Shown here one piece after another: positions 15,668 to 35,572 of a stretch of DNA of 38,220 nucleotides. Location of the stretch: the NCBI GenBank assembly GCA_031256895.1, contig JAIRPR010000102.1, positions 1-38,220 of the forward strand. The letters run 5' to 3'. The notes below the pieces were generated by a model. The model did no database searches and had not been told where the DNA came from. It saw only the letters and a program-made list of their open reading frames with translations. The DNA comes from Coriobacteriaceae bacterium. GTDB lineage: Bacteria; Actinomycetota; Coriobacteriia; Coriobacteriales; Eggerthellaceae. Both the position numbers and the translations under genes were made by a program. Every line of letters begins with the position of its first letter. Position 1 is the stretch's first letter.

Positions 15668-17764
15668 TTAGGTGTAGAAGAGGATGTCGTTGTAGGTGGG
15701 TACCGGCCAGTGTGCGCGGTCGGTCAGGCGCTCCAGGCCGTCTATGGCATGACGGAGCTTCTGCATCAGGGGGATGACCTCTTCGGCATAGGCGCTTGCC
15801 TTCTCTTGCTCGTTCTCGATATCGCGTACCCGATGATGGGTCTCGTCAAGGGCCTCCAAGTGCCCAGCTGCCTCATCAATGCCGGACAAGAGACGTTTGA
15901 GCTGTGCTTCCTGATGTGCAAGCGGCGCATCGGGCGAAACCGCCTTGATGGCGGTGATGGTGGCAGCAAGGGAAGCGGCATATTCGTTGATGGCCGGCAG
16001 GAAGGTGCGGCGTGCCATGCGCTTCATCACGCGTGCCTCAATATTGAGCGTCTTGTTGTACTTCTCAAGCTTGACCTCATAGCGGCTCTTGATCTCGGCT
16101 TCGCTCAGCACCTCGAAGGCCTCGAAAAGTTCGATGCTCTTCTTCTCTATGAAGCAAGGCAATGAATCCGCCGTCGTCTTCTTGTTGGCAAGACCGCGCT
16201 TTGCGGCCTCTTCTTCCCATTCCTGGCTGTAGCCGTTGCCGTTGAAGATGATGCGCTGATGTTTGATGAGGGATTCCCTGATGTATTCGATGGCAGCGGC
16301 CTCGAATTCCTGGCCGCTCTTGCCCTCGAGCGCGTCTGCGAATTCCTTGAGGCTCTTCGCCATGGCGGTGTTCAGTATCATATTGCAATCAGACAAGTTC
16401 AGGCTCGAGCCCGGCATGCGGAACTCGAACTTGTTGCCGGTGAAGGCGAAGGGGCTGGTGCGGTTGCGGTCGGTGTTGTCCTTGAGGAAGTTCGGCAGCA
16501 CCGCCACACCCAGGTCCATGGCTACCTTCTCCACGTTGTTGTAAGCGCCTTCCTGGCCGGTGATAAGGGCTTCCACGATGGCGTCGAGCTCGTCGCCCAG
16601 GAATATGGACACGATTGCCGGGGGCGCCTCGTTGGCACCGAGGCGGTGGTCGTTGCCGGCCGAGGCCACGCTCATGCGCAAGAGCTCTTGGTAGTCATCG
16701 ACCGCCTGGATGACCCCGGTCAAAAACACCAGGAAGCGCAGGTTGTCCATAGGGGTGTCGCCCGGGTCGAGCAGGTTGGTCTTCCCAGCCGAGACCGACC
16801 AGTTATTGTGCTTGCCCGAGCCGTTTATCCCCTCGAAAGGCTTTTCGTGCTGGAGGCAGACCAGGCCGTAGCGAGAGGCCAGAAGACGCATCTTTTCCAT
16901 CGTGAGCAGGTTCTCATCGACAGCGCGGTTCACGTTGGTGTAGATGGGGGCAAGCTCGTGCTGGGCAGGGGCAACTTCGTTGTGCTTCGTCTTGGCCGAA
17001 ACGCCCAGTGCCCACAGCTCATCGTCGAGCGTCTTCATGAACTCGTTCACGGTAGGCCTGATGGCGCCGAAGTAATGCTCTTCAAGCTCTTGGCCTTTGC
17101 AGGGCGGGTATCCAAAAAGGGTGCGCCCCGTCAGGATGAGGTCTTGACGTGCGGCGTAGTCCTTTTCGGAGATGAGGAAGTATTCCTGCTCCGAGCCAAC
17201 GGTGGTGGTCACCCGCTGATGGGGCTCCCCAAAAAGAGCCAGCACGCGGTTGGCTTGATCCTCGACCGCGCTCATCGAACGCAGCAGCGGGGTCTTCTTG
17301 TCAAGCGCCTCGCCGGTATAGCTGCAGAAGGCAGTGGGGATGCACAGCACCTCATCTTTGATGAAGGCATAGCTGGTGGGGTCCCATGCGGTATAGCCGC
17401 GGGCTTCGAAGGTGGCCCGCAGACCGCCTGAAGGGAAGCTTGAGGCATCCGGTTCGCCCTGGATAAGCTCCTTGCCCGAAAAACTCATGATGGCTCGGCC
17501 ATCAGGGCAGGGGTCGAGGAAGCTGTCGTGCTTTTCCGACGTGATGCCTGAGAGAGGTTGGAACCAATGGGTGTAATGCGTGGCGCCTTTCTCAATAGCC
17601 CATTCCTTCATGGCATGGGCTACCACGTTGGCCACCTCTAAATCAAGGGGTTCACCATCGCGTATGGTTTTGAGCAGGCTTTTATACGTTGCGGAAGGAA
17701 GCCTTTCCTGCATCGTATGCTCGTTGAACACCATGGAACCGTACAGTTCTGAAATATTCGACAT
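15668..17764 (-). CDS. glnN: Glutamine synthetase type III
   Basis: 698 aa; [17 protein letters not shown]...[21 protein letters not shown]...[22 protein letters not shown]...[13 protein letters not shown]...[20 protein letters not shown]. Confidence 0.96.
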
Positions 17765-18545: not shown

Positions 18546-18590
18546 AAGCCGAGACCCACAGGCAGGGGTCTTGGCTGCGGGTCTCGGTTG
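18546..18590. terminator. Putative hairpin terminator
   Basis: CCGAGACCCaCAG...CTGcGGGTCTCGG; on the minus strand it is followed by CTTTTATG. Confidence 0.45.
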
Positions 18591-18719
18591 GGCCAGGGGG
18601 CTTTCCTTTGAGCGGCTAGAGTGGAGGAAAGCCTCGGCAATAACAGGTGAGGATTGTTCATAAAACCTTGCGCTTCTACGTTGTACCCGTGACAAACACC
18701 TCGAATGGCCTGTGCGCAA

Positions 18720-18755
18720 GGGCACCCCTGGCCGCCTCTCGTGAGACAGCCAGGG
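18720..18755. terminator. Putative hairpin terminator
   Basis: GCACCCCTGGC-cgcctctcgtgagaca-GCCAGGGGTGtc stem (10 bp), downstream of the giant ORF on its strand. Confidence 0.5.
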
Positions 18756-18780
18756 GTGTCTTTGGGTCATCTTCCCCCTC

Positions 18781-18956
18781 AGCGGCCTGTGTGCCCGTGG
18801 GTCATCGCATCCCTCAACAGCTCGGTGTTCCCGTGGGTCACCGCATCCCTAAACAGCTCGGTATGCCCATGGGTCATCGCTTCCCTCAACAGCTCGGTAT
18901 GCCCATGGGTCATCGCTTCCCTAAACAGCAAGATGCACCCGTGAGTCATCTTCCCC
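18781..18956. repeat. 36-bp tandem array spanning the 3' end of the giant surface-protein gene
   Basis: gtgttcccgtgggtcaccgcatccctaaacagctcg / gtatgcccatgggtcatcgcttccctcaacagctcg and related; the unit most proximal to the gene encodes the C-terminal GEDDSRVHLAV-stop. Confidence 0.92.
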
Positions 18957-21900
18957 CTTTTCCTTCTTCCTTTTCACGAAGAACATCAAGAAGAGTTCCA
19001 GAGCTGTTGTCAGGCCGAACAGGGCTATCATCAGAAGGGTGGTGCTATCGCCTGCCTTGGGCACTATGGCCGGTGGCTGAGGGGCGTTTAGCTGCCACAC
19101 CGCGTAGAGGGTCTTGTCTGAGTCCATCAAGATGGCATCCCCCGGCTGGTACAGAATGCCGTTTCCTGCAATGCCCTGGCTTGCCGCGGTCATCTCGGCC
19201 GTGGAGGCCTGGCCGTTCATCGGGGTACCACCCAATGCGGCAGGGCTGTACGCGGAATCCAAACTGTAGCCTATAAAGGTGAAGCCGTCCTTCGACACCG
19301 TTCTTTCCTTGATGATTGCGTAGGTGTTGTGGGGGTAAAGCTCGGCTGCGGGCACATTTCCGAAGGTATGGCCATTGCCATCGTAGACCAAGGTCCAATG
19401 GGCGCCGACCCGGGCGACCACATCCACCGATACGCTGAGGTCGTTGCCTATGGCGAACATGATGTCAAAATCGCCGGGGCGCCTGGCATCATAGCCGCCG
19501 TTGTCAAGGACCACCAGGGGCACCGCAGCACCGAAGGCGGGGTTCTCGGTGCCATCGGGCAAATACCGGCGCACATCGATCGCACTGGCCTCAGCTTTGT
19601 CGATCGCCTCGCGATCGGTTCCTGTCACATCTGTCAGATCGATCATGAAATCATGGGCGCTGATGGCATAGCCGTCCTTGATGCTCCAATCGCCAATCAG
19701 CACCATGCCTGCCTGGGTGGTGGTGTTATGGTCGGAATCGGTCACCGAATAGGTCACGCGAAACACAGACTGCGGGTTGGCAAGGCTCACCGGTGTGTCA
19801 TGGGTGATGTTGGTGAGCGGGCCGTCCTCTGAGTCGTGCGCGGTGACGCCTTGCATATAGCTGGGCACAGTATCGGTGGCCGCCCCTTCCTCGAACACCG
19901 CCCCGGTGCCCTTGTTATACGGCACCACCTTCACAGCGGGCACATCAAGCACCGGAGCCGTGCGGTTCGACACCAAGAGCTCCACGGTAACAGTGGCGCT
20001 GTGGTCTTCTTCAACCCAGAAGGTGATGGCAAATATGTCGCCCTCTGCCAGGCTTCCCGCCATGCCATCGAATGATGTGCCGGCAGCCGGTGCATTCTTC
20101 TTCACAGCAGATACCAGCTTGAGCGAACCATCGGGGAAGGCCATGTCGCCACTGCGCAGAAAGCTTTCCGCACCAGAACGGGCTATGAAGGCCGCTTCGA
20201 TAGCTGCCAGGCCGTTTCCGGCAAGCTGGTTGGCATCGGGGACATTCATCACAAAGGCACCAGCCAGGATGGAATAGAGGTCGCCGTTCTTACCGACCTT
20301 TGCATCATCGTAGACCCTTGCAGTAATCTCGCGGATCAAGGAGGGATCGATGGCTAGGCTGAGCTTTATGCCGTCGTAGTCGCGGGCGACCGCCTGATAG
20401 CCGGCATCGTCGGGCACGGTGATGCCGAACTTGTCAATCGGCGTGCCGTCGCTTTTCCATGCCTCAACTTCGGATAGGCTTTTGATCTGCCCCTCCTTGT
20501 CAACCGTGTCCACGTCGCCACATCTCACAATGAACGAGTTGGCACGGAGCACATAGGCTGCGTTCCATCTGAAGGATCCATCGTCGATGACCACGGCGCG
20601 GCTCTTCCAAACGGTGTTGCCTGCGTCGTCAGTCACGCAGTAGGTAACCTTGGTGACACCTGGTTCGTCTGCATAGATGAGCGGCATATCGGCTATCTTG
20701 TCGCCATCTTGGTCCAGAATCACCCTGTTTGTGATGTCGCGGGGCGAGCCATCGGGATCATCGGCACTGACGCCCACCATGATCTGGGCTTGGGTCAGGG
20801 CGGTGTGTGATGTTCCTCGCGGCAGCACCAAAGGCGAGGGCACTGCCGTTATCACCGGCGGCGCACCGGCAACCACCTTTACGGTCAGGGTCAATTGGGC
20901 GGCACCATCGGCGTCTGTCACGACAACCTGGTAGCTACCGGTTGCCTGGGTGCCGGTCGGTCTGCCGAAGAACCCATCATCGTCGGCCACCACCACGCCC
21001 AACGGGGCAAGGCTGCCATCAGGCATGCCCTTGCGCGCACCCGCGCCCAGCTTGGCCAACAGGGCGGCCTCGGGAGCGCCCTGGCCTGCAGCCAGCTGTA
21101 TGGCATCTGCTTCCAGGGGGCTTATCTCGATGTCGTTACCGAAGACGAAACGCGTGTCCTGGCCTTGTCCTGTCGGCCCTGATGAAACGACCTGCGCGTC
21201 CACGACCTCGGCGGTCACGGTGCGCACCAGCACCGGGGCATTTGAGGGGTTGTCGTAACCGTTGAAGGTCAATGGGTAGATGCCCGCCTGCTTGGTGTAG
21301 CCGCCATCATTTGCAACCCAGCTCTGATCGGGGCTGAGCGGGGTGCCAGCGGGCACCTGCCCGCTCTCGTTGCTGCCGGCGATCAGGGAAAGGCCGCTCA
21401 AGGCACGCAGTTGTCCTGCGCTTGCAGAGCCTACAACCACGTCTTCCTTGGCTATGACGAAGCCTTTGGCAAACAGCACACGACCAAAGCCCAAGGTATA
21501 GCGCCCATCGTTCACCACCACCAGGCGGTCGCCTTCTGTGGTGTTCAGGTCGGCATCGGTGACAGAGAAGCGCACACGATAGGTGCCCGGTTGGGCAAGG
21601 TCTACCGGCGCACCCAAGGGGCTTGCCACCACGGCACTGGTGATGTCCTTGGGCTTGTCAGGCACCGTGGCTGTGGCCTTGCCATCGCCATCGGGGTCGG
21701 TGGCCGTCACGCCATAGGTGTCGGTGTAGGCACCAGGCAGCACGGCTCCCACGGGGGCTTGCGCAGGATCGCCTATCCAGACCTCCAAGGGGGTCGTGTA
21801 GGCAAGCAGGGGCGGCTTGCCGTCAGAGACGGTGCCTTTGACGACAACATGCTGGATGGCCTTGTCGATGAAGTAAGGCGTGGTAGCCAGCACCTGGATG

Positions 21901-24900
21901 GTGAATTCCACATCATAGTCGCCGCGCGAAGCAGCGAAGCCTCCGCGGTCCTCGATATGGGCTTTGGCGTTTGGTGCAGATGCCACAAGCTTTATCACAT
22001 GGGCATCTGCCGCTGCGATGAAGCCATCGGTGTTGATGAGGACTTGCGCCTCAAGGGTATTGACCATGAAATTCGAGGCATAGATGGCATACTGGCTGTC
22101 CTTTGAATCAGGGCCCAGCACATCGGCCACAACCACTGTTCCCGTCACAGCCTTCTCGGCCTTATAACCGGGCACCTTCCAGATAAAGGGATAGCCTCCA
22201 TTGCCGTTCGTGGGGTTATAGCCGGCAGGGATGCCGTCTTTCAGGTAGAGGCCAGGCGTAACGCCGAGGTCGTTCCCCTGCGTATCAAAAGCCTCGGCGT
22301 AGGAAAGGCTCCGAATGGCGTTCTCGTTGGCCTGTACTGCCCCCCGCTGTATCACGAAGTCGCGCGCACCGATGATGATGTCGTTTATGCCGTCGCCATC
22401 CTCGTCCTCTATGACGAAGCGCCCGTCGTCGATCACCACAGCGCGATAGGCCGTTGTGCTGTTGCCGGTGGAATCGGTTGCCGTGTAGCTCACTTGGTAT
22501 ACACCGATGTTATGGGTGTTGATGGATCCGCCGGGGCTCATGACCGCAACAGACATTCCCGAGAACAGCGCCGTTGAAGGACCGGTGACGTCGTCCCAAG
22601 CCGGGTAATCCTCGGCATCGGTCACCCGCACGGCGGCTTTCAGCTCTGCCTCGGTCATGGTGTGGTTTGTCAAGGTCTGCGGGATGACCAAGGGCGTCTG
22701 TGTGAAGGTGATGGCAGGGCCTGAGCCAGGGCCTACCTTCACCTCTATCGTCTTGTTGGCTGCGGTGTGATCGCGCACTGCCACGACCACGTCGAAGGTG
22801 CCGGGTGTCTTACCAAAGTATCCGTCGTCGTCAAGGACGATGACCGCAACAGCGTTGCCGAAATCAGGGTTGGCAGCCCCTGTGGGCAAGGTGGGCCTTC
22901 CATCGATGGCTTTCGCACCCGATTCGGCAATGACCTCGGATTCGGTGCCTGCGACATCGCCAATTTCCTTGGAGAAGCCCTGTGCGAACAGGTAGTAGCC
23001 ATCGACTTGGGGCCAATCGCCCACCAACACGATTCCGTCCTTGGTCACGGTGTTGTTGTCAGAATCGGTAACGGAGTAAGTTATCCGATACACCGCACCT
23101 TCGACCGAGGTGTCCACTGGTTTGTTGTAGCTTATCGCAGTCAGAGCGCCGTCCTCGAGATCGTAGGCTGAAACACCCTGAAGGTAACTGGGGCTTGTAT
23201 CTGCGGTGGTCCCGGGATCGGGGAAGGGGTCGCCCACAGGCACCACCTTCACGGCAGGCACATCGAGCACGGGGGCTGTGCGGTTGGACACCAACAGCTC
23301 CACCGTAACGCTGGCCGTCGGGTCTTGCGCCACCTGGAAGACCAGATCGAAGAGGTCGCCTTCAGCCAGGCTGCCGGCCAGTCCCTCAAAAGTGCTGCCA
23401 ATGCTGGGGGCGTTCTTCTTTGTTGCGGACACCAACACCACGGTGCCTTCTGGGTTGTCCATGCTGCCGCTCCGTAAATAGCTTACCGCGCCTGCCCGCG
23501 CTTTGAGGTCGGCCTCGATGGCAGCCGTGCCGCTGCCGGCTATCCCGTTGGCATCAGCTACGTTCATCACAAAGCCGCCTGCCAGAATAGAATAAGCCGT
23601 GCCGTTCGTGCCGATTTTTTCCCCATACACCTTGGCCGTGACCTCGCGAATCAATGGATCGTTCAGAAGCCCCAGCCTAACCGGCTTGTAGTTCGCGACC
23701 ACGGCGGTGTAGCCCGCATCATCAACCACGGTGATGTCGCCCGCGTCCACGGGGCTGCCTTCGACTCTCCAGGCCTTTACGCCCGAAAGCTGCTTTATCT
23801 GATCGGGGTCGTGAGGCACCACATCGGTGTCCTTCACGATGAAGGAATTGGCTTGCATGATATAGCGGGCATTCCAAACAAAGGTACCATCGTCGATGAT
23901 GACGGCACGGCTCTGCCATACGGTATTGCCCGCGTCGTCGGTCACACAGTAGGTCACCTTCGTGAGACCGGGTTCGTCAGCATAGATGACCGGCATGTCG
24001 GCTATCTTGTCGCCGTCTTGGTCTATCACTACCCGCCCGGTTATGTCGCGGGGCGAGCCATCGGGGTCGTCAGCCGATACTCCTGCCATGAGCTGGGCTT
24101 GGCTCAGGGCGGTGTGCGTTGTTCCCACAGGCAGCACTAGCGGGGTGGGCGTCGCCGTTATCACAGGCAGGGCGCCTGCTGCCACCGTGACAATCAAAGG
24201 AAGCCTGAGTATCCCGTCGGCATCGGCAAGCACCATTGTGTAGGTGCCGGTGGACTGCACCCCTGTCGTGCGGGCGAAGAAGCCCCCCGCATCGGCGATA
24301 TTCACGCCCAATGATGCAAGCGTGCCATCGGTGCTTGCCTTTCGTGCTCCCGCGCCAAGGGCTGTCATCAGGTCAGCATCACGGGCAGATTGGCTGCCGG
24401 CCAGCTGTATGGCATCTGCTTCCACGGGGGTGAGAACCACATGGTTGCCGAAAAGATAATGGGTGTCGGTCGCAGTGCCCGCAGGGCCTGAAACGACCAG
24501 CTGCGCATCCACAACCTCTGCGGTCACGATGCGGGAAATCGATGGTGCAGAAGAGGGGTTGTCGTTTCCGCGAACGGTCACCTGATAGGTGCCCTGTTGC
24601 TTGCCATAGCCGCCGTCGTCAGCTATCCAGACCTGGTCGATTCCCAGCCTTTCCCCCGCTTTAACACTGCCCTCGTTGCCGCCGGCGTACAGGGAAAGGC
24701 CTGTCTGACCACGCATTTGCGCCTGTTTGTCGGCAAGCGGCGCCTCGACGACGTCGCCCAAGGCTATAACGAAGGATTTGGCGAACAGAACACGGCCTTG
24801 GCCTACCTCGTAGGCGCCGTCGTTCACAACGACCAGACGGTCCCCTTCGACGGTATTGAGGTCGGCATCAGTGACAGAGATATGGACCGTGTGCATGCCC

Positions 24901-27900
24901 CTTGTTCCCAGATTGATTGGGCCGCCCACCGGAGTGGCCACGACTGCCGAGGTGATGTCTTTCGGCTGATCGGGGAATTTACCGGCTCCATCGGGGTCGA
25001 TGGCGCTTATGCCATAGGCATCGGTGTAGGCGCTTGGCAGGATGGCGCCGACAGGCATCTGGGCGGGATCGCCTATCCATACCTCCAAAGGAGTATTGAA
25101 GGTCAGCACAGGCGGTTTGCCGTCAGTCACCGTGCCGTTCACCACAACATGTTGGATAGCTTTGTCGATGATGTAGGGCGGGGTGTCCTTGACCTGTATG
25201 AGGAACTCGACAGGATAGACGCCCTGCGATGCCGCAAAACCCCCGCGGCTTCCGGTGACCGCAACCGCATCGGGAGCAGTTGCCACCAGCTTCACCACCT
25301 GCGCGTTCGCGGCAACAACGAAGCCGTCGGTGCTGATGATGGCCTGTGCCTCGGTGGTGTTCGCCAAGAAGTGTGAAGCGTACACCGCGTACTGGCTGTC
25401 CTTGTTTCCGGAATCGACCACATCGGCGGCGACCACATGGCCGACGACCTTTTTCTCGGCAGTTGTGCCATTGACGCACCAAATGAAGTCATAATCTGCG
25501 GGGATTGCAGCGGCGTAGTCTGCGGGAATGCCACCGACAAGCGAAAGGCCGGGCGTGGTACCCAGGTCGTTCCCTTCTGTGTCGAAGGCTTCCGCCCATG
25601 AGAGCGTCCGTATGTGCGAGGGGTTGTCCTGGACCTTGGTCTGTGCCACCACGAAATCGCGGGCTCCGATAACGATGTCGTATTTGCCGTCGTTGTCCTC
25701 ATCTTCCATGAGGTAGCGCCCGTCGTTGACAACCACGGCGCGGTAAGCGGTCGTGGTGTTGCCGGTCGAGTCGGTGGCCGTGTAGCGCACGCGGTACACA
25801 CCGACCTTATGGGTGTCAATTGCAGCAGCGGAGTTCATCGGCACAACGGACATGCCGGTGAAAAGCGCTGTAGAAGGGCCCGTAATGTCGTCCCATACCG
25901 GGTAGTCCTCGGCATCGGTCACCTGTAAGCCTGCCTTCAGGTCGTCCGGGGTCATCTGGTAAGAGGCGGCTGTCTGCCTGACCACCAGGGGGTATTCGAT
26001 GAACTTGATGTCGGGTGGCTGTCCCGGAAGGCCTACGGTGGTATCGACATACGCATCGGGGCTGCTGGCAGCATTGATGGTGAGGTAGCCGTGGTTCACT
26101 GCATCAGACGGCCACAGCCCGGCGACCTTCTCAAGGTCGGCCTTCACGATAAGTGCCACCTCGGTTCCTTGTGGCTGGCCTGACAGATAGGTGGCGATTG
26201 CCGCTGAATCGAAGGTATAGTTGGCCTGGGCACCGTTTGCGATGCCCCGGTAGACTACCGTGTTGCCTACCTTCACCTGCATGTTCCAATCGGGTGCGGT
26301 GACTTGCGCCAAGGTGAGGCCTGGCTCCATGACGTCTTTGATGTCAATGGAGGTAAAGCCGATGAAGGGATCGGCCCCGCTGGCCGGTGCCGGGGGCACG
26401 ATGAAGCCTAACTTGTACTCAAGCCTCTCGGTCAGATCGCTCACCGTGCGGGTAGCCGCCCAGGTGCCTGTGCCTGCAGGTGCGCCCGCCTGCGGGTCCC
26501 AGACCACTTTGGTGAAGCTGTCCTTGATGGCCTTGATGACAGCGGGATCGGGGGGTGCTTGCATATAGCCTGCATTCACTTCCCTGGACAGGTTGGCGCC
26601 GTTGGCATCCCGGTCGATGACCAGCACAGGGCTTACCCCGTTGCTGTCCACATCGCTGTAGACCGCAGAAGTCACGCGCCCGCCAGCAGGCACGAGCTGT
26701 GTGAAGCAAAGGCCGGTCGCCGGAGAAGGGGCGCACACCACATAGCTTCCCGGCCCGACGATGAACCCGTAGGAGCCGGCTGAGTCCGTCGTGGCGGTTT
26801 CAAGCGGGGCGGAAAAAGCAGTATCCGCCGCATCGAACAGCGACACCTGCTTGCCGGCAAGCGCAGATTCACCATTGCCGAACATGCCGTCGCCATCAGC
26901 ATCGGTGAAGAGGATGCCGCCTATCCTTCCGAGGACATGTGCCTTCGGCCTTTCGGAAGCGGTGAGGCCTTTATGCAAGACGCCGCCCAAGTAGACCTCG
27001 GCAGTATTGGTAGCGGTGGCCGGGTAGATACCTCCTGTTGCTTTGACCTGGGCTTTCAATTCTATGTTGATGTCGGTGCCTTCCAATTTGCTCATGACGG
27101 CGGCATAGGGCCCCGAAAAGCCTATCTTTAAGATGTTCGTGGTTGTGTCCAGGTTTGCCTGCGGCACCAGCCCTGCAACGGCATTGCCATTCTTGCTCAC
27201 GGTCACCACGACATTGGCCGCATTGCCCACCAGCATAAGGTCGGTGCCCAGGATGTCTTGTATCTCGACGCTCCCGAACGGGGTCATGTCGTCTGACATA
27301 TGTACGCGGATGCGATAGTCCAACACCTCGTTGACCGGATCGGTCACGGTGGCCTCGTTGCCCGCAAGGGGGTTCCCTTGTGCATCGGTCAATTCCTTTG
27401 CAAGGGATAAGCCACGGATGAACAGCTCGTCATTAGTGTCAGAATCGGTATCGTTTCCGGCGGTTACGCTGGCAGTGTTCGTGACGGCAAGACCGGCAGT
27501 GTCGCCCGCCGTATCGTGATCGTATCCAATGCCCCAGGTAGTTGCCGCCGGAAGGCTGCGCAGGATGGTCAGGGTACGGGTGGCGCTGTCAACCGTGTAG
27601 TCAATGCCTACGACCCAGCCTGCAGGAGGCACGAAGCTGCCGTCGAGGGACTCTTGTACCACGATAGGGCTCGGGATCGGCAGCGACCCGGAATTGGACA
27701 CCTCAAGCAAATAGCCAACGATGTCGCCCTGGTCTGCCAAGGTGCTTTGGCCTGTTGCAAGGCTCTTATCGATGTGGACATAATTGACCACTTCGATGTT
27801 TTTCGAGAGCGTGGTCAAGGGTGCGCCCGTCGGGGATATCGTATAGGTGTAGCTGCCTGTGGCATCAGTGTATCCGCCGCCGTCAACATCATAGGACACC

Positions 27901-30900
27901 TCGCGATAGCCCCGGGGTTCTGCCGGATCCATCTTCCAAACGCCGGTCTTTCCCAGAAGCTTTATCTGTGCAAGGCGCAGGCTGCCTTGTGCGGGCGCCA
28001 CCTTGCTCTGGAATATGGTGAAGTCATCTCCGGTCAGTATGTATTCCCCTACCACCGTCATATCAACGATGAACAGACGGGCATTGCTGGTGACATAGTT
28101 GCCGTCAGAATCGGTGGTGCCATAGACCACCCGGTAGATGCCTCGACGACTGACATCGACCGCATCGCTGGCAGGGTCGATGACGAATCGCGCATCATCC
28201 AAAAGATAGCTGGATGAATCCACGGCATCGCTTGCTGTCAGGGCCCCCAAGGTCTTATGGTAGGCAGGCGTATCCGCAAAGCCTGACTGGTTCAAGGAAA
28301 GCACGACCGGACTTGATGCCGTTAAGGTTGCCTGCGACAGCTTGACATCCACCGTGGCCAAGGTGGTACCCGGCTCTTCAGCCACCTGAGCGGTGAAGTA
28401 ATCGTCACGCACCGCATTCTTGGTGAGGTAGCGAACCACCAGCTGGCGGGTGGCGGCACTGGTGACCAGAACGCCGTTGCTCCATCCCTCCATCTTGTAG
28501 GCGCAGACGTTCGCCTCGTTCATGAGGTCAACGTTACTCACCCTGTCTGCCCAGGCGAAATCCTTGCGGTCGGTGATGTCGTTGTAAGAGAGGTAGTAGT
28601 TCGTGCCGATGACCACGTTATCGTTGGGATCGACGTGCACGAAGAAGGTCTCGCGGTAGTCTTCGCCCTTGAGTTTCACCGTGACTCGGTAGTCACCCGC
28701 AGCAGCGGCGCTGCCGAAGCGGAAGTCGGTCGATTCGACCTCGATTGCTGCCGCCGTCTTGCTGGGAACCAACAAGAAGCCCTGGGCTTCTACCAAGGCA
28801 AGCAGCCCTGCGTTATCGACGACCTGCTGGGCAGCCTTAAGGCCTATCACCTTGTTGTTGCCCGTTATGGCGAAGGCCACAGCCTGTACCGTGATGGTTG
28901 CGGCAGCCGGTATCACGCGGTCGTGGACCGCAGTCTGTGCGAACGGCTCGGCATTGCCCGAGGCATCGGCGAACACGATGGCGATGACATCTCCAGCCTG
29001 CAAGGCAAAGCCGCTTTGGATGGCGAAGGACCAGGTGCCGCCTGGATCCACCGTTGCGATGCCCGGTAAAGGTGCAAAGGCGGCTGTCCCGCGCTTGAAT
29101 TGCGCGGTAACACTTACCGGTGCATCGTCATGCACACCAGGCACCCAGGTGCCCGAAAGCTGGCTCTGGTTCTCATAGAAGTTCGCAGGGGCTATGGAGG
29201 CTGCCGGCAGGGGCGGCACCACGTCAGCAACCACAAGGGGGCCCGCTGAGGTGAAATCAGTGCCTATATGGCGCTTGGCAGAAGTCGGGTCGGGCACGCC
29301 ACGCCAGTACGCGGTGACCTCATAGCTGTCGCCCGGCTCCAGGAAAAGGTCTGCGTTGCCCGGTTCTGAAGCCGCTTTCTCAAGACGCAGGACGCCTTCC
29401 AACACGGCGGCGCCGGTTTCTGCAGAATAGACGGACTCGCTATCGAACGATCTGCTCATGCTGGCCGTCGTGTCGAATGTTGTGCCGTTTGCCTTGACAA
29501 CATGCACGATGCCGTAGACCTCGTCATCCCAGAAGGACCTTCCATTCAGATCAAGGCCTTCGGGCACCGTACCCAGCCAACGCAGGTATTTATCGGCATT
29601 CGTTGCCGGTTCGGCGCTGCGGATGACGGGAGGCGCGTTGTTCGCGCTCATGCGGGAATACGCGGCCATGCCGTTGCCCTTGGTGCTGGCATTGTACTGC
29701 GCAGCAAAGCCTGGCTCGGCTGAGGCCACCGTGACGAAGTCTGCCCCCGACAAACTGTAATCGAGCAAGGTCCACGATTTGAAGGGCGAGGCATTGAAAT
29801 CTTGGCCTTTCTCCCACACCGCAAGGTCTGAGTTCGTCGAGTTGAACTTCGAGCTGTTCCCGGTGTCAAAGATAAGGCCGCCACCCGGGCGGTCGTTGGC
29901 GAAGTCGTAATAGAGGGGGTTGTTCATGCTTATCTGGACATTGCCCCCCGTTGCCCTGACTATGCCGTTCGTCGCGCCGTTCGCGGCATCTGCCGTGCGC
30001 CCTTTGGCAACGAAAACGGCGTCTTGCCCTATATTTATCTTGCCGTTGCTCCGGTTGGATGCGTTGATCGCCGCCCCATAGGGGGCGTTTATGATGATGG
30101 CCGATCCGGCACCCTGCACGTCAAAGGTGAAGTCATTCGCGCCGAACTCGATGGCCGTGTTGTCGCCACCATCGGTGCCCGCAGTGCCACCGGGGTTCGC
30201 GGCTGTGCCGTTGCCCGCGTTCGTGACGAACACTTTGCCGCCCGAACTCACGATGAAACCGTTGCCCGTGCCAGTGCCGAAGCGAAGGGCGCTCACATCG
30301 CCGTAGTTGTTCGACTTGTCGAACTTCTTGGTGATGTGGACCTCGGCGCCGTCGGTCACGTTGAAGTACTGGTTGCCGCTCACCCGGAAGCGCATGACTG
30401 CTTGAATATGGTAGTCATAGCCCTTCAAGGAAGCACAGCTAAACTCGGTACCTTGGCCGGTCACGATAAGGCTTGAGTTCGAGACCTGCGAGACATAGGC
30501 AGAATTCGCTGCGAGGCTTTCCAGACGGACCTTCGCGCCGTTTGTGATGGTGGTCACAAGGCCGGTGCCCTGTAGGTTCATGACACCGCTGTTGTCGGCA
30601 CCGCCGCTGCCGGTCGAGGTGCCTATCAGGGTTGCCCCATCCACGGTGAAGGTATTGCCCGCTACAATATTGTTGTACCAGATGGCATGAGAATAGAGGG
30701 GGTTGTTGCCCGTGTAGAGGTTGGCCAGTTCCACCTTCGCTCCAGGACCTATGTCAAATCCCGCGCCGGCGGCACCGTTCACATGCAGGACTGAGTTGCC
30801 CCCGCTCAAGGTGACGTGCGCGCCTGGCTTGATGGTAAGGTTACGGACGTTGACGGTCTCTATGGTGTTCGTAGTGCCGTTGTGATGCGTCTGCCAATCA

Positions 30901-31844
30901 ACGGTACCCGCCAGCTCGACGTACGCGCTGGTTGCGTTGATCAGGCCTTGGCTGCCGCTGGCTGCGGAAGACACGTTCTCCAGCCTGATGGACCAGTTCG
31001 AGCCGTTCCCGGCGGTTGTGGCGTTCTGGCGCATGATGAAGGCGTTCGTGGCATTGACATAAGGCTTGCGCACGATGAGGTCCTTGACTGTCATGGTAAG
31101 TGCTGAAGTCGTGTTTGCCAAGCTGATTGCATTGGCCACGTTGTTGTCGCTGCCGAAATCCAGGGTGTGGCCGTTGCCTGCTATGGTCACGTTCTTGGTG
31201 AAAGCGGCCGGGCGATCGGCAGCAGCCGTGCCGGCAGGACGTATGATGTCGGATTTCAGGGAGATGGTGTTGGCTGGGGCGCCCAACACATCGTTTGCGT
31301 CGTTGACCCTCTTGATAGCGGCAAGGAACTCCGCCCAGGTGCTGACCCCTATGACCCCGGGGGCGTCATCGGAGTAAGGGCTGATGCCGATACCCCTGGC
31401 CTTCGGCACCTGCAGGCTGCCTTGATCCCCAGCGGGTGTTTGGGCACCCTCTTCGGGGCTTTCGGTCGCCGGCCCGGCTGTCTGCGGGTTGACGGCTTCC
31501 CCGGGGTTCACGGCTGTCTGCGAGTCGATGGCTTCCCCGGGATCGACGGCCTCCTGCGGACTGACGGCTGTCTGCGGGTTGACGGCTGTCTGCAGGTTGA
31601 CGGCTGTCTGCGGGTTGACGGCTGTCTGCGGGTTGACGGCTGTCTGCGGGTTGATGGCTCCTTCGGGGTCGCCGGCTGCAAGCCCGACCGGTACAGCAGT
31701 GCCCGACGATACGTTGGGGGCTATTGACGTATCGCGACTGTCGCCGAATGCGGCGAAAGGGCCCGCCGTCAGCAACATCGCAAAACTGAGGAACAGGGCC
31801 AATGCCCGTTTTCTTCCTGAGCCTTTCGGGGCTTTCTTGTTCAT
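18921..31844 (-). CDS. Giant (4307 aa) cell-surface/adhesin-like protein
   Basis: Signal peptide MNKKAPKGSGRKRALALFLSFAMLLTAGPFAAFG; NPQTAV repeats; beta-helix-like region; DUF11-like and SdrD B-like segment (GRIGGILFTDADGDGMFGNGESALAGKQVSLFD); serial Ig/cadherin-like modules (VTYSVTDSDNNT type); InlB-like WTLVYDGNGHTFG...LYAVWQLN; C-terminal VPKAGDST + TM + KRKKEKG. Confidence 0.95.
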   Translation of the reverse strand: MNKKAPKGSGRKRALALFLSFAMLLTAGPFAAFGDSRDTSIAPNVSSGTAVPVGLAAGDPEGAINPQTAVNPQTAVNPQTAVNLQTAVNPQTAVSPQEAVDPGEAIDSQTAVNPGEAVNPQTAGPATESPEEGAQTPAGDQGSLQVPKARGIGISPYSDDAPGVIGVSTWAEFLAAIKRVNDANDVLGAPANTISLKSDIIRPAGTAAADRPAAFTKNVTIAGNGHTLDFGSDNNVANAISLANTTSALTMTVKDLIVRKPYVNATNAFIMRQNATTAGNGSNWSIRLENVSSAASGSQGLINATSAYVELAGTVDWQTHHNGTTNTIETVNVRNLTIKPGAHVTLSGGNSVLHVNGAAGAGFDIGPGAKVELANLYTGNNPLYSHAIWYNNIVAGNTFTVDGATLIGTSTGSGGADNSGVMNLQGTGLVTTITNGAKVRLESLAANSAYVSQVSNSSLIVTGQGTEFSCASLKGYDYHIQAVMRFRVSGNQYFNVTDGAEVHITKKFDKSNNYGDVSALRFGTGTGNGFIVSSGGKVFVTNAGNGTAANPGGTAGTDGGDNTAIEFGANDFTFDVQGAGSAIIINAPYGAAINASNRSNGKINIGQDAVFVAKGRTADAANGATNGIVRATGGNVQISMNNPLYYDFANDRPGGGLIFDTGNSSKFNSTNSDLAVWEKGQDFNASPFKSWTLLDYSLSGADFVTVASAEPGFAAQYNASTKGNGMAAYSRMSANNAPPVIRSAEPATNADKYLRWLGTVPEGLDLNGRSFWDDEVYGIVHVVKANGTTFDTTASMSRSFDSESVYSAETGAAVLEGVLRLEKAASEPGNADLFLEPGDSYEVTAYWRGVPDPTSAKRHIGTDFTSAGPLVVADVVPPLPAASIAPANFYENQSQLSGTWVPGVHDDAPVSVTAQFKRGTAAFAPLPGIATVDPGGTWSFAIQSGFALQAGDVIAIVFADASGNAEPFAQTAVHDRVIPAAATITVQAVAFAITGNNKVIGLKAAQQVVDNAGLLALVEAQGFLLVPSKTAAAIEVESTDFRFGSAAAAGDYRVTVKLKGEDYRETFFVHVDPNDNVVIGTNYYLSYNDITDRKDFAWADRVSNVDLMNEANVCAYKMEGWSNGVLVTSAATRQLVVRYLTKNAVRDDYFTAQVAEEPGTTLATVDVKLSQATLTASSPVVLSLNQSGFADTPAYHKTLGALTASDAVDSSSYLLDDARFVIDPASDAVDVSRRGIYRVVYGTTDSDGNYVTSNARLFIVDMTVVGEYILTGDDFTIFQSKVAPAQGSLRLAQIKLLGKTGVWKMDPAEPRGYREVSYDVDGGGYTDATGSYTYTISPTGAPLTTLSKNIEVVNYVHIDKSLATGQSTLADQGDIVGYLLEVSNSGSLPIPSPIVVQESLDGSFVPPAGWVVGIDYTVDSATRTLTILRSLPAATTWGIGYDHDTAGDTAGLAVTNTASVTAGNDTDSDTNDELFIRGLSLAKELTDAQGNPLAGNEATVTDPVNEVLDYRIRVHMSDDMTPFGSVEIQDILGTDLMLVGNAANVVVTVSKNGNAVAGLVPQANLDTTTNILKIGFSGPYAAVMSKLEGTDINIELKAQVKATGGIYPATATNTAEVYLGGVLHKGLTASERPKAHVLGRIGGILFTDADGDGMFGNGESALAGKQVSLFDAADTAFSAPLETATTDSAGSYGFIVGPGSYVVCAPSPATGLCFTQLVPAGGRVTSAVYSDVDSNGVSPVLVIDRDANGANLSREVNAGYMQAPPDPAVIKAIKDSFTKVVWDPQAGAPAGTGTWAATRTVSDLTERLEYKLGFIVPPAPASGADPFIGFTSIDIKDVMEPGLTLAQVTAPDWNMQVKVGNTVVYRGIANGAQANYTFDSAAIATYLSGQPQGTEVALIVKADLEKVAGLWPSDAVNHGYLTINAASSPDAYVDTTVGLPGQPPDIKFIEYPLVVRQTAASYQMTPDDLKAGLQVTDAEDYPVWDDITGPSTALFTGMSVVPMNSAAAIDTHKVGVYRVRYTATDSTGNTTTAYRAVVVNDGRYLMEDEDNDGKYDIVIGARDFVVAQTKVQDNPSHIRTLSWAEAFDTEGNDLGTTPGLSLVGGIPADYAAAIPADYDFIWCVNGTTAEKKVVGHVVAADVVDSGNKDSQYAVYASHFLANTTEAQAIISTDGFVVAANAQVVKLVATAPDAVAVTGSRGGFAASQGVYPVEFLIQVKDTPPYIIDKAIQHVVVNGTVTDGKPPVLTFNTPLEVWIGDPAQMPVGAILPSAYTDAYGISAIDPDGAGKFPDQPKDITSAVVATPVGGPINLGTRGMHTVHISVTDADLNTVEGDRLVVVNDGAYEVGQGRVLFAKSFVIALGDVVEAPLADKQAQMRGQTGLSLYAGGNEGSVKAGERLGIDQVWIADDGGYGKQQGTYQVTVRGNDNPSSAPSISRIVTAEVVDAQLVVSGPAGTATDTHYLFGNHVVLTPVEADAIQLAGSQSARDADLMTALGAGARKASTDGTLASLGVNIADAGGFFARTTGVQSTGTYTMVLADADGILRLPLIVTVAAGALPVITATPTPLVLPVGTTHTALSQAQLMAGVSADDPDGSPRDITGRVVIDQDGDKIADMPVIYADEPGLTKVTYCVTDDAGNTVWQSRAVIIDDGTFVWNARYIMQANSFIVKDTDVVPHDPDQIKQLSGVKAWRVEGSPVDAGDITVVDDAGYTAVVANYKPVRLGLLNDPLIREVTAKVYGEKIGTNGTAYSILAGGFVMNVADANGIAGSGTAAIEADLKARAGAVSYLRSGSMDNPEGTVVLVSATKKNAPSIGSTFEGLAGSLAEGDLFDLVFQVAQDPTASVTVELLVSNRTAPVLDVPAVKVVPVGDPFPDPGTTADTSPSYLQGVSAYDLEDGALTAISYNKPVDTSVEGAVYRITYSVTDSDNNTVTKDGIVLVGDWPQVDGYYLFAQGFSKEIGDVAGTESEVIAESGAKAIDGRPTLPTGAANPDFGNAVAVIVLDDDGYFGKTPGTFDVVVAVRDHTAANKTIEVKVGPGSGPAITFTQTPLVIPQTLTNHTMTEAELKAAVRVTDAEDYPAWDDVTGPSTALFSGMSVAVMSPGGSINTHNIGVYQVSYTATDSTGNSTTAYRAVVIDDGRFVIEDEDGDGINDIIIGARDFVIQRGAVQANENAIRSLSYAEAFDTQGNDLGVTPGLYLKDGIPAGYNPTNGNGGYPFIWKVPGYKAEKAVTGTVVVADVLGPDSKDSQYAIYASNFMVNTLEAQVLINTDGFIAAADAHVIKLVASAPNAKAHIEDRGGFAASRGDYDVEFTIQVLATTPYFIDKAIQHVVVKGTVSDGKPPLLAYTTPLEVWIGDPAQAPVGAVLPGAYTDTYGVTATDPDGDGKATATVPDKPKDITSAVVASPLGAPVDLAQPGTYRVRFSVTDADLNTTEGDRLVVVNDGRYTLGFGRVLFAKGFVIAKEDVVVGSASAGQLRALSGLSLIAGSNESGQVPAGTPLSPDQSWVANDGGYTKQAGIYPLTFNGYDNPSNAPVLVRTVTAEVVDAQVVSSGPTGQGQDTRFVFGNDIEISPLEADAIQLAAGQGAPEAALLAKLGAGARKGMPDGSLAPLGVVVADDDGFFGRPTGTQATGSYQVVVTDADGAAQLTLTVKVVAGAPPVITAVPSPLVLPRGTSHTALTQAQIMVGVSADDPDGSPRDITNRVILDQDGDKIADMPLIYADEPGVTKVTYCVTDDAGNTVWKSRAVVIDDGSFRWNAAYVLRANSFIVRCGDVDTVDKEGQIKSLSEVEAWKSDGTPIDKFGITVPDDAGYQAVARDYDGIKLSLAIDPSLIREITARVYDDAKVGKNGDLYSILAGAFVMNVPDANQLAGNGLAAIEAAFIARSGAESFLRSGDMAFPDGSLKLVSAVKKNAPAAGTSFDGMAGSLAEGDIFAITFWVEEDHSATVTVELLVSNRTAPVLDVPAVKVVPYNKGTGAVFEEGAATDTVPSYMQGVTAHDSEDGPLTNITHDTPVSLANPQSVFRVTYSVTDSDHNTTTQAGMVLIGDWSIKDGYAISAHDFMIDLTDVTGTDREAIDKAEASAIDVRRYLPDGTENPAFGAAVPLVVLDNGGYDARRPGDFDIMFAIGNDLSVSVDVVARVGAHWTLVYDGNGHTFGNVPAAELYPHNTYAIIKERTVSKDGFTFIGYSLDSAYSPAALGGTPMNGQASTAEMTAASQGIAGNGILYQPGDAILMDSDKTLYAVWQLNAPQPPAIVPKAGDSTTLLMIALFGLTTALELFLMFFVKRKKEKGEDDSRVHLAV
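19410..26010 (-). repeat. Two tandem super-repeats of about 3.3 kb inside the giant gene
   Basis: Anchor VTDAEDYPxWDDxTGPSTALF at about 25900 and 22603; anchor DVPAVKVVP near 23250 and 19935. The order of the four module types is the same in both copies. Confidence 0.85.
31476..31668 (-). repeat. 18-bp coding tandem array (NPQTAV)n after the signal peptide
   Basis: INPQTAVNPQTAVNPQTAVNLQTAVNPQTAVSPQEAVDPGEAIDSQTAVNPGEAVNPQTAG. Confidence 0.95.
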
Positions 31845-32250: not shown

Positions 32251-33681
32251 TCAGCAGTCCACGAGCGGCAGGATGACCTGTACCGCGAAGGTTCCTACTG
32301 GGGGCATCTTGTCGCGTCCTGGGGAACCTGCATCCCGAGTGGTTGCATGCCTTGTCCCCCCCATTTCCTGGCTCAGGTCCTTGGGTTTGAAAGAGGCATC
32401 CATCAGGCCGTCGCACTCGCTTACCCGGCGGCGCACCTGCAGGAGGCCTAACCCATGCGAGGGGCCCTCCTTCTGCGAGAGGAACACTCCTTTTCTGCTT
32501 ATCGGGGCGAGAGCAACGTTCTGTATGTTGAACAGCAGGTTCCTTCCCTGCTTTTTCAGAAGGATGTCGATATGCGGCTCGATCCCCTGCCCTGCCACCC
32601 GGTCGCTTGCCTCTATCGCGTTATCGAGCAGGTTGCCGATGATGGTGACCACGCTATAGCTGTCCACCGGCACGGGTCCGCCCCCTGATACTTCCAGGTC
32701 AAAGGGATGTCTCTTTTGCTTGCACACAGACAGCTTCGCTGCCAGGATAATGTCCATGGCCTTGTTCCCTGTTGTCACAAAGGCCTCGGCATCGGCCATG
32801 ATGCTTTGCAGATAGGCCGTATGGGCTGAAACTGCCTCGGTATCGCCCTTCTGTGCCAGACTGTCGATGACAGCCATGTGGTTCAAAAGGTCATGGCGCA
32901 GCTTGCGAAGCTCATTGGTGGCGCTTTCGAGGTCCTTGATATAGCTTTCCTCAAGCCTCATATAGCCGTCTTTCAAGATCAGGCGTTTCGCGTGGGCTAT
33001 CTGTTGGGTGTAGGCGATATGGAACACCAGGACCATCACCGCGGAACCGGCCACCATGATGCTTTCCGCATTATGGCTGTTCTGTTTGACGTGCTCGTAC
33101 AAAAGCACGCTGTTGAGCACCGACGTGTTGTCGAGCAGCAAGATGATGGCAAACATGCAGGTCCACAACAGTATCGTGGTACCGACCAGGTAGGAAGAAG
33201 GAGCCGATTCCTGGAAGCGGTATATCCGCGACTTCTTGATGAATGACACAGCCAAAACGGTCGCCCCCGCCGTGAGCAACATGCCCGCCACACTGGCGAT
33301 GTCGTCGGACAAGGCGAAGGCCCAGGATACCCGAACGCACAGCAGCATCATAAGGTAGTGGACGCTCACCGCGAAAGCGACCAGCCCCGATAGACGGAAC
33401 AGGTGCCCGCTCAGTTTCCCCTGTGCATTGATGAACAGGTGGATGTACAACATGAGCAGGGAAGTTGCCAAAACCAGCTGCACATAGGCTATCAAGGGCG
33501 TTGACACTATCACGGTGGGAACCAGTACAGCGGTCATCAACAACGAGACCCCCGCTGTGGGCAGGATGCGCGGTATTCGTTCTGCATAGATGTCGTTTAT
33601 CAGTATCACCCCGGCAGCGAACAGGACATACAGGCAAGCAAAGTTCACCAAGATTCCCGGGTTGCTCAAACTTGTCATCAT
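32251..33681 (-). CDS. GHKL-domain sensor histidine kinase (AgrC/LytS-like, multi-TM N-terminus)
   Basis: ELRKLRHDLLNHMAVIDSLAQKGD (phospho-acceptor His), VVTIIGNLLDNAIEASDRV (N box), SHGLGLLQVRRRV (G box). Confidence 0.93.
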   Translation of the reverse strand: MMTSLSNPGILVNFACLYVLFAAGVILINDIYAERIPRILPTAGVSLLMTAVLVPTVIVSTPLIAYVQLVLATSLLMLYIHLFINAQGKLSGHLFRLSGLVAFAVSVHYLMMLLCVRVSWAFALSDDIASVAGMLLTAGATVLAVSFIKKSRIYRFQESAPSSYLVGTTILLWTCMFAIILLLDNTSVLNSVLLYEHVKQNSHNAESIMVAGSAVMVLVFHIAYTQQIAHAKRLILKDGYMRLEESYIKDLESATNELRKLRHDLLNHMAVIDSLAQKGDTEAVSAHTAYLQSIMADAEAFVTTGNKAMDIILAAKLSVCKQKRHPFDLEVSGGGPVPVDSYSVVTIIGNLLDNAIEASDRVAGQGIEPHIDILLKKQGRNLLFNIQNVALAPISRKGVFLSQKEGPSHGLGLLQVRRRVSECDGLMDASFKPKDLSQEMGGTRHATTRDAGSPGRDKMPPVGTFAVQVILPLVDC

Positions 33682-33794: not shown

Positions 33795-34949
33795 TCAAGC
33801 ATTTTCGACCTCAGGGGCACAACCGGCGAACTCCAGCCAGGCGGCAGTCATTTCCTTCTGGCGGTTCCGAGAGATGGGAATCTTTCGTTTGTCCCGCATG
33901 AGAAGCGAGCTTTTGCTCAGACATTCGATATGAGCCAGATTGACCAGATATGAGCGATGGGGGACCACGAAACCGCGGGGGAGCATCTGCTCGATTATGT
34001 CGTTGAAACGCGCACGGAAGACCTCTACCCCGTCGACGGTGTGCAGCTCCACAAACTGCAATTGCGCCTCGAAATAGCAGATGTCGGCTATTGCCACGCG
34101 CTTGATTCCCGTGTTCGTGTCTGCCAGGAATATCTGATCGCTCTTGTTCCTCATATGCCTGCTGGCAAAGTCCAATACCCGCTCGATTTCGCTTTGTCGC
34201 AAGGGCTTGACCAGGAAATCGAAGGCCTGGACCTTGTAGCCGTCGAAGACATATCCAACATTGCTGGTGGTGAACACGATTATTGCTTCCTTGTCCTGCC
34301 TGCGGATTTGGGCGGCTATCCGCAGCCCGTCATCATTGGGCGGCGTCAGGAAAGGGTGTGCGGTGTTGTTGTCCTCGTGCGTGGCGATCGCCCAGTTGCT
34401 GTCCCCGTGCGTGGCGCGGCTGTCCTCGTGCGTGGCGATTGCCCGGACGCTGTCCCCGTGAGTGGCGCGGCTGTCCCCGTGCGTGGCGATCGCCCGGGTG
34501 CTGTCACCGTTCGTCGGAGACCGCTTGATGTTCGTGTTCTGGAAGCTGCCCTGCGTCATTGCTGCGTTCGTGTTCTGGAAGCTTTTCGCCGTCTCTTGGG
34601 CGCTGTTGCCTCCCAGGTCGATATCCAAGAACAAAAGGTCGAAAGGCGCATGCTTCTTCGCATGAAGAAGGAAGCTTGCGGCATCGGAGAATCGGTGGAT
34701 CTGCGGCTTGATGTGCGTACTTGAGCGCGGGGAACCTGCTGGGTTGGTTGAACCGCCCGTGCGGGCAAGGCCGATGCCTCCTGGAGTGCCTCCTGTGTGG
34801 GCAAGGCCGATGCCTCCTGGAGTGCCTCCTGTGTTCAAGGTCACTTCCGGGCACCCACCTTCCGCCATCTGTTTGGCTTCCCATATTTTGATGCCCTGAA
34901 CCAGCTGATTGCGCTGTACCGCATTGTCTTCGCATATGGCTATGTTCAT
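33795..34949 (-). CDS. LytTR-family response regulator with repeat insertions in the receiver domain
   Basis: MNIAICEDNAVQRNQLVQGI (start at 34949), DLLFLDIDLGG phospho-site, IIVFTTSNVGYVFDGYKVQAFDFLVKPL, LytTR DNA-binding RRVAIADICYFEAQ...RSYLVNLAHIECLSKSSLLMRDKRKIPISRNR-type C-terminus. Confidence 0.94.
   Translation of the reverse strand: MNIAICEDNAVQRNQLVQGIKIWEAKQMAEGGCPEVTLNTGGTPGGIGLAHTGGTPGGIGLARTGGSTNPAGSPRSSTHIKPQIHRFSDAASFLLHAKKHAPFDLLFLDIDLGGNSAQETAKSFQNTNAAMTQGSFQNTNIKRSPTNGDSTRAIATHGDSRATHGDSVRAIATHEDSRATHGDSNWAIATHEDNNTAHPFLTPPNDDGLRIAAQIRRQDKEAIIVFTTSNVGYVFDGYKVQAFDFLVKPLRQSEIERVLDFASRHMRNKSDQIFLADTNTGIKRVAIADICYFEAQLQFVELHTVDGVEVFRARFNDIIEQMLPRGFVVPHRSYLVNLAHIECLSKSSLLMRDKRKIPISRNRQKEMTAAWLEFAGCAPEVENA
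34335..34605 (-). repeat. Coding tandem repeat array inserted after the receiver phospho-site (THGDS units; FQNTN 36-bp units)
   Basis: THGDSTRAIATHGDSRATHGDSVRAIATHEDSRATHGDSNWAIATHEDNN; DNA alternates 30- and 21-bp units; ttcgtgttctggaagct at 34531 and 34567. Confidence 0.92.
34755..34830 (-). repeat. 36-bp coding tandem repeat (TGGTPGGIGLAH) in the receiver N-terminal half
   Basis: gtgcgggcaaggccgatgcctcctggagtgcctcct followed by gtgtgggcaaggccgatgcctcctggagtgcctcct; one base differs. Confidence 0.95.
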
Positions 34950-35572
34950 ACACGCCTCCATGTAAACGCTTGTCGAACGCCCGTTGAGCGGGGAATCCCT
35001 ATCGCCGGTGCTGTACACAGGCGAAGACCGAAGCCCGAATGTTCCCCCCACATTGTGCGGGGACACGATGACCCGGTCGGATGCCTCGCATCCGCACCTC
35101 AACCATAAGCCTGTCGTCTCACGGGAACCCAAACGCAGCATTCGCTGGACTCCAAGGCACCGAGGTGCCCCGTCTTCTGGCTGGCCCACTCGACCGCCAT
35201 GCCCCGCACCCGAACAAGCTACTTCAGGGGTGCCTTTTGCAGCCGTTCATACTACACCAGAAGGATAACAATTACAAGAAGTATCAATAATGCTACGAAA
35301 TGCCTTTTTTAATTCCCGTTCACAAGCTGGCCATTGACGGTAACCCGCAATAACGATTTCTCTGTCCCAATCGGCGAAGGGCAATCGGGACACCTGTTGT
35401 CACGTGTTGTCCCTTGGGCGGAAATTTCCGAAAGGATGGTCACAGTTCAGAGGTTGGCCAACGACAACACAGCACCCTGATTGACTCCAATCGAAGAAGG
35501 AGAGAAACTTGCAGGTGAAGCACCCCTGCCGGCTAACCCGTGAACAGTTGCAAAGGATGTCCCTCAATCCCA

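Follow-up and report, generated by a model that had tools for sequence, protein, structure and literature searches.

A 36-bp tandem array across the stop codon of a giant surface-protein gene in an array-dense genome

The gene for a 4,307-aa surface protein (18921..31844, minus strand) ends within a tandem array of 36-bp units, and this arrangement raises the question of whether the repeat adjusts the length of the protein, encodes a product of its own, acts on the transcript, or lies on the stop codon by happenstance. A preliminary description of this DNA had favored the first of these, proposing that recombination between units, or single T/G changes, would move the stop and alter the tail in 12-residue steps. 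The window, that is, the whole stretch of 38,220 nucleotides that was analyzed, is contig C183 of a MAG, probably a member of the Eggerthellaceae, of 2.36 Mb in 224 contigs with 77.5% completeness. We characterized the array and its host gene, and compared them with arrays sampled across the same genome and its relatives.

The array and the gene end that it overlaps

The array consists of five in-register 36-bp units on the minus strand (18956-18777), which span the TAG codon of the giant gene (18923-18921). Unit -1 (u-1; 18921..18956), GEDDSRVHLAV*, comprises the last 11 codons and the TAG that is the true stop. Read further in the frame of the giant gene, it is followed on the same strand by unit 0 (u0; 18885..18920), GSDDPWAYRAVE, with a GAG end; unit 1 (u1; 18849..18884), GSDDPWAYRAV*, with a TAG end; unit 2 (u2; 18813..18848), GCGDPREHRAVE, with a GAG end; and unit 3 (u3; 18777..18812), GCDDPRAHRPLR, which has an AGG end and a decayed 3' third. 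These re-derived units match exactly the in-frame translation given in the preliminary description, and the alternation of TAG and GAG ends noted there holds from u-1 to u2. A sixth, decayed partial unit absent from that description (unit 4; 18742..18777, minus strand; 22/36 identity) lies at 35-bp spacing and runs into a hairpin; its first 12 bases, GGGGAAGATGAC, are those that begin u-1.

TRF assigns 3.8 copies and a score of 213-216 to the array, whereas the top score among 60 first-order Markov shuffles of the window was 61, with 0.017 arrays of score at least 60 per window; the in-register array across the stop is therefore confirmed, and its origin as a chance product is excluded. Units u0 and u1 are 35/36 identical, the single difference being the TAG/GAG base, u0 and u2 share 31/36, and the identities to the core amount to 23-24 for u-1 and 25-26 for u3. 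The array ends upstream at u-1, since the 36 bases preceding it ("u-2") share merely 6-9/36. Among the 76,368 36-mers of the window compared, at least 23 identities are reached by the five units alone, and u-1 is consequently a real unit; the proposal that the authentic C-terminus is itself a diverged repeat unit stands, with u-1 in register at 24/36 identity. Divergence is greatest in the edge units and the central units are near-identical, as is typical of arrays that evolve through unequal exchange. The possibility that the units themselves form a hairpin was considered and rejected: CCCATGGG occurs in u0 and u1, but CCCACGGG or nothing takes its place in the other units, so there is no conserved stem.

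As judged from domain matches and sequence features, the host protein begins with a signal-peptide-like N-terminus, followed by NPQTAV-type 6-aa repeats, and contains a pectate-lyase-like adhesive domain, SdrD_B and Ig-like surface domains. Its C-terminus, VPKAGDSTTLLMIALFGLTTALELFLMFFVKRKKEK-GEDDSRVHLAV*, resembles a sortase sorting signal, with VPKAGD, a hydrophobic stretch (TM) and KRKKEK at the C-terminal end, where Pfam Gram_pos_anchor falls below its cut-off; the corresponding motifs in paralogs are PPTGD, PLTGD and PITGD. Because the genome encodes a sortase (PF04203 above cut-off, contig C163), that enzyme probably removes the array-encoded tail, which follows the PKAGD-type motif.

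Beyond the array, the minus strand carries a strong 16-bp hairpin with no T tract (approximately 18718..18758), a stretch 92% identical to the 3' region of a paralog on contig C98 of the same genome (18579..18615), and the probable rho-independent terminator of the giant gene (near 18587-18550), the inner stem-loop of which, CCGAGACCC...GGGTCTCGGCTTTT, occupies 18552..18571. The C-terminal region of the C98 paralog is 54% identical to the giant protein. The 92%-identical stretch starts 306 bp past the stop at the giant gene and 42 bp past the stop in the paralog, and the approximately 264 bp extra at the giant gene are the array, the strong hairpin and spacer. No array was found at the 3' end or in the 3'-UTR of the C98 paralog, and we infer a gain at the giant gene rather than a loss in the paralog.

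Searches for relatives place the array at this locus only. It has no match in the 398 other genomes of the order; moreover, the giant gene and the array are both missing from both genus-mates (three genomes of the genus were compared, including the MAG). In a scan of named genomes, the only matches were distantly related to the C-terminal repeat region of the giant protein, and the gene itself was not found there. Membership of a dispersed repeat family was rejected, as the whole assembly holds only the four tandem local copies at up to three mismatches, and the unit has no exact match in viral contigs.

Array density and placement across the genome

Background statistics were obtained from sampled stretches of approximately 492 kb (the window with L038-L057 and L134-L153), with arbitrarily picked contigs analyzed apart from those picked by surface-protein or terminator matches, tandem arrays defined by a TRF score of at least 60, and genes called by a simple codon-bias ORF picker. 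Per 100 kb, the MAG contains 29.1 arrays in the contigs picked arbitrarily and 31.9 over the full 492-kb sample; the two genus-mates have 15.2 and 18.0, and the range among six other genomes of the family is 2.5-7.0. Its minisatellite density is thus about twice that of the genus-mates and exceeds that of most family members 4- to 12-fold; counted per intergenic base, it surpasses the genus-mates approximately 3-fold and the six other family genomes 5- to 25-fold.

Among 80 arrays classed as non-genic or edge, 16 straddle a stop codon, where 18.8 +/- 3.7 are expected from random placement touching intergenic DNA. Stop-straddling is therefore predicted by density, and a minisatellite on a stop is expected from density alone; about 5 per 100 genes of the MAG have an array over the stop. 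Start codons are overlapped by only 3 of the 80 arrays against 18.6 expected, a count as low as this being reached in none of 500 random placements: arrays avoid start codons, and the 5' ends of genes are protected. Periods divisible by three are found in 21/47 non-genic arrays versus 49/53 genic ones, so the non-coding arrays are without frame constraint. Another genome, G002, in which arrays are few, has a mild excess at stops (6 versus 2.6 expected, P 0.02). A special enrichment at the stops of surface-protein genes was also considered and rejected, being anecdotal only (a 7-bp array on contig C72) and at chance level in the genome-wide test.

The array is very probably a lineage-specific 3'-UTR minisatellite that has grown by tandem duplication, and whose 5'-most unit overlaps the last 11 codons and the stop by happenstance. 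Tandem duplication, through replication slippage or unequal crossing-over, would build such an array in an unusually array-dense genome, and the growing array would capture the last codons and the stop of the giant gene. Copy number may then vary among strains of the species, here represented by a single genome, and this variation would be near-neutral because the affected residues belong to the tail behind the sorting signal; occasional shifts of the stop would be expected to have a small effect. The stop-codon array itself is a minor curiosity. Of more use is the pattern across the genome: a bacterial lineage whose minisatellites outnumber those of its family several-fold, with approximately 5% of gene ends affected, supplies many naturally occurring cases in which to follow how repeat growth makes C-termini and 3'-UTRs drift while the start regions of genes stay protected.

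Reading frames, stop shifts and other readings of the array

One observation that a purely neutral array does not predict is the conservative character of the changes between units in two frames other than that of the giant gene. In the gene's own frame, the changes among u0-u3 are S/C, D/G, W/R, A/E, Y/H and */E with one silent change (BLOSUM sum -3, P 0.84), consistent with no conservation past the stop. The same changes become E/D, M/V, H/H, H/N, T/T and F/L in the +1 frame (BLOSUM sum 25, P 0.005, or approximately 0.03 corrected for six frames), and the antisense frame that shares third positions with it behaves alike (BLOSUM sum 20, P 0.005, approximately 0.03 corrected). With seven changes and six frames tested, conservation in the +1 frame is suggestive only.

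The +1 frame contains a 56-aa ORF of uncertain status (18779..18949, minus strand), MTHGCILLFREA/MTHGHTELLREA/MTHGHTELFRDA/VTHGNTELLRDA/MTHGHTGR*, which covers the final 29 nt of the giant gene. Its bounds coincide with those of the array, and in every unit an RBS-like AGGG or GAGGG precedes an ATG or GTG; together with the conservative changes, these features would fit a real small gene encoding a 56-aa protein of 12-aa repeats, translated through coupling or re-initiation at the 3' end of the giant gene. We nevertheless regard such a gene as very unlikely: the changes number merely seven, the antisense frame yields the same P because the third positions coincide, a 12-codon unit has roughly an even chance of being free of stops, the G-rich stretches stem from the AAG/GAA/GGG codons of the tail, and no homolog of the ORF is found in the 398 other genomes of the order. 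A more elaborate form of this idea, in which the units serve as repeated translation-start modules (RBS-ATG-12 codons) and form a nested small gene over the stop of the adhesin, kept by selection in the +1 frame, so that the length of the small protein changes and the adhesin tail changes only as a by-product, appears very unlikely.

A tail-length switch, the idea in the preliminary description, would shift the stop through unit gain or loss or through T/G changes, with tail variants that influence how the adhesin is anchored or retained. The units are in frame with alternating TAG and GAG ends, and the near-identity of u0 and u1 makes exchange between them plausible, so the stop could in principle be moved by unit gain or loss. 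The predicted 12-residue steps hold in part: a one-unit deletion between u-1 and u0 would add 12 residues, but a T-to-G change at the first TAG would add 24, because u0 ends in GAG. Further evidence against a switch comes from the second stop in u1 and the mostly non-conservative changes in the frame of the gene, from stop-straddling at chance level genome-wide, with housekeeping genes such as purF among those affected, from the paralogs, whose tails are similarly short without the array, and from the sortase, by which a tail behind the PKAGD-type motif would probably be cleaved off. A selected or special switch is thus unsupported, and we hold it to be highly improbable.

A further reading, also very unlikely, is a cis-acting RNA or DNA element of repeated 3'-UTR units that affects transcript stability, processing or protein binding; the position of the array between the stop and the probable terminator, beside the strong 16-bp hairpin, would suit it, but no known RNA family in Rfam matches the window, the unit has no other copies in the genome and no homolog in the 398 other genomes of the order, and the paralog's 3'-UTR does without the array.

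Comparable loci and related repeat systems

Other gene ends of the MAG show similar arrays, as expected for minisatellite growth. A purF-like gene on contig C163, named from its C-terminal sequence and neighbors and not by family search, is followed from its stop by a 30-bp array of 3.5 copies (L045 6635-6739, as listed 16635-16739) that occupies the whole space before the following gene. The two genes nearly abut in both genus-mates, with no array between them, which makes this locus a clear example of an array gained recently within a probable operon. In a 49-bp array at a flavoprotein gene, the unit duplicates the end of the gene's own coding sequence (GRIAGANAAAAKP / GRIAGADAAAAKP) beyond the stop, and in a genus-mate the gene has no array over the stop. 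A fumarate-reductase-like flavoprotein matches 73 places in the 2.4-Mb assembly, versus 24 and 1 in the two genus-mates; the 73 matches are a large paralog family. A second surface protein with a sorting signal (contig C72, 496-aa partial ORF) has a perfect AGGAATA repeat of 6.6 copies from its stop (L040 1484-1529), found nowhere else in the sampled loci. Its 7-bp unit can change the frame, which makes this locus a good place to look for variation.

The array resembles bacterial minisatellites or VNTRs, such as the ETR and VNTR loci of M. tuberculosis, which likewise consist of tandem 30-80 bp units in intergenic positions near genes, and VNTRs adjoining genes have been reported to vary between isolates (PMC2734929). 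It differs from them in spanning a stop codon and in being known from one genome. Mycobacterial MIRUs are short repeated units whose small ORFs extend over the ends of genes, possibly with translational coupling (PMC12548453), and the 56-aa ORF similarly overlaps the end of the adjacent gene. However, MIRUs are scattered across many loci, with start codons apparently serving as insertion sites, whereas the present unit occurs at one locus only and the arrays of the MAG avoid starts. Like the SD repeats of staphylococcal adhesins, which are intragenic coding repeats in surface proteins (PMC3324548), the array is an in-frame minisatellite in the gene of a cell-surface protein; unlike those repeats, which lie inside the protein proper, it codes for only 11 residues, in the tail behind the sorting signal.

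The NPQTAV-type repeats close to the N-terminus of the giant protein are encoded by an 18-bp array of 10.3 copies (31475-31659), which is a likelier site than the tail for length variation in the displayed protein. Immediately upstream of the giant gene and on the same (minus) strand lie genes for a GHKL-type sensor kinase and a LytTR response regulator (32251-33681 and 33795-35189), a pair that may regulate the adhesin; two tandem arrays (34370-34514 and 34759-34834) lie within the LytTR gene.
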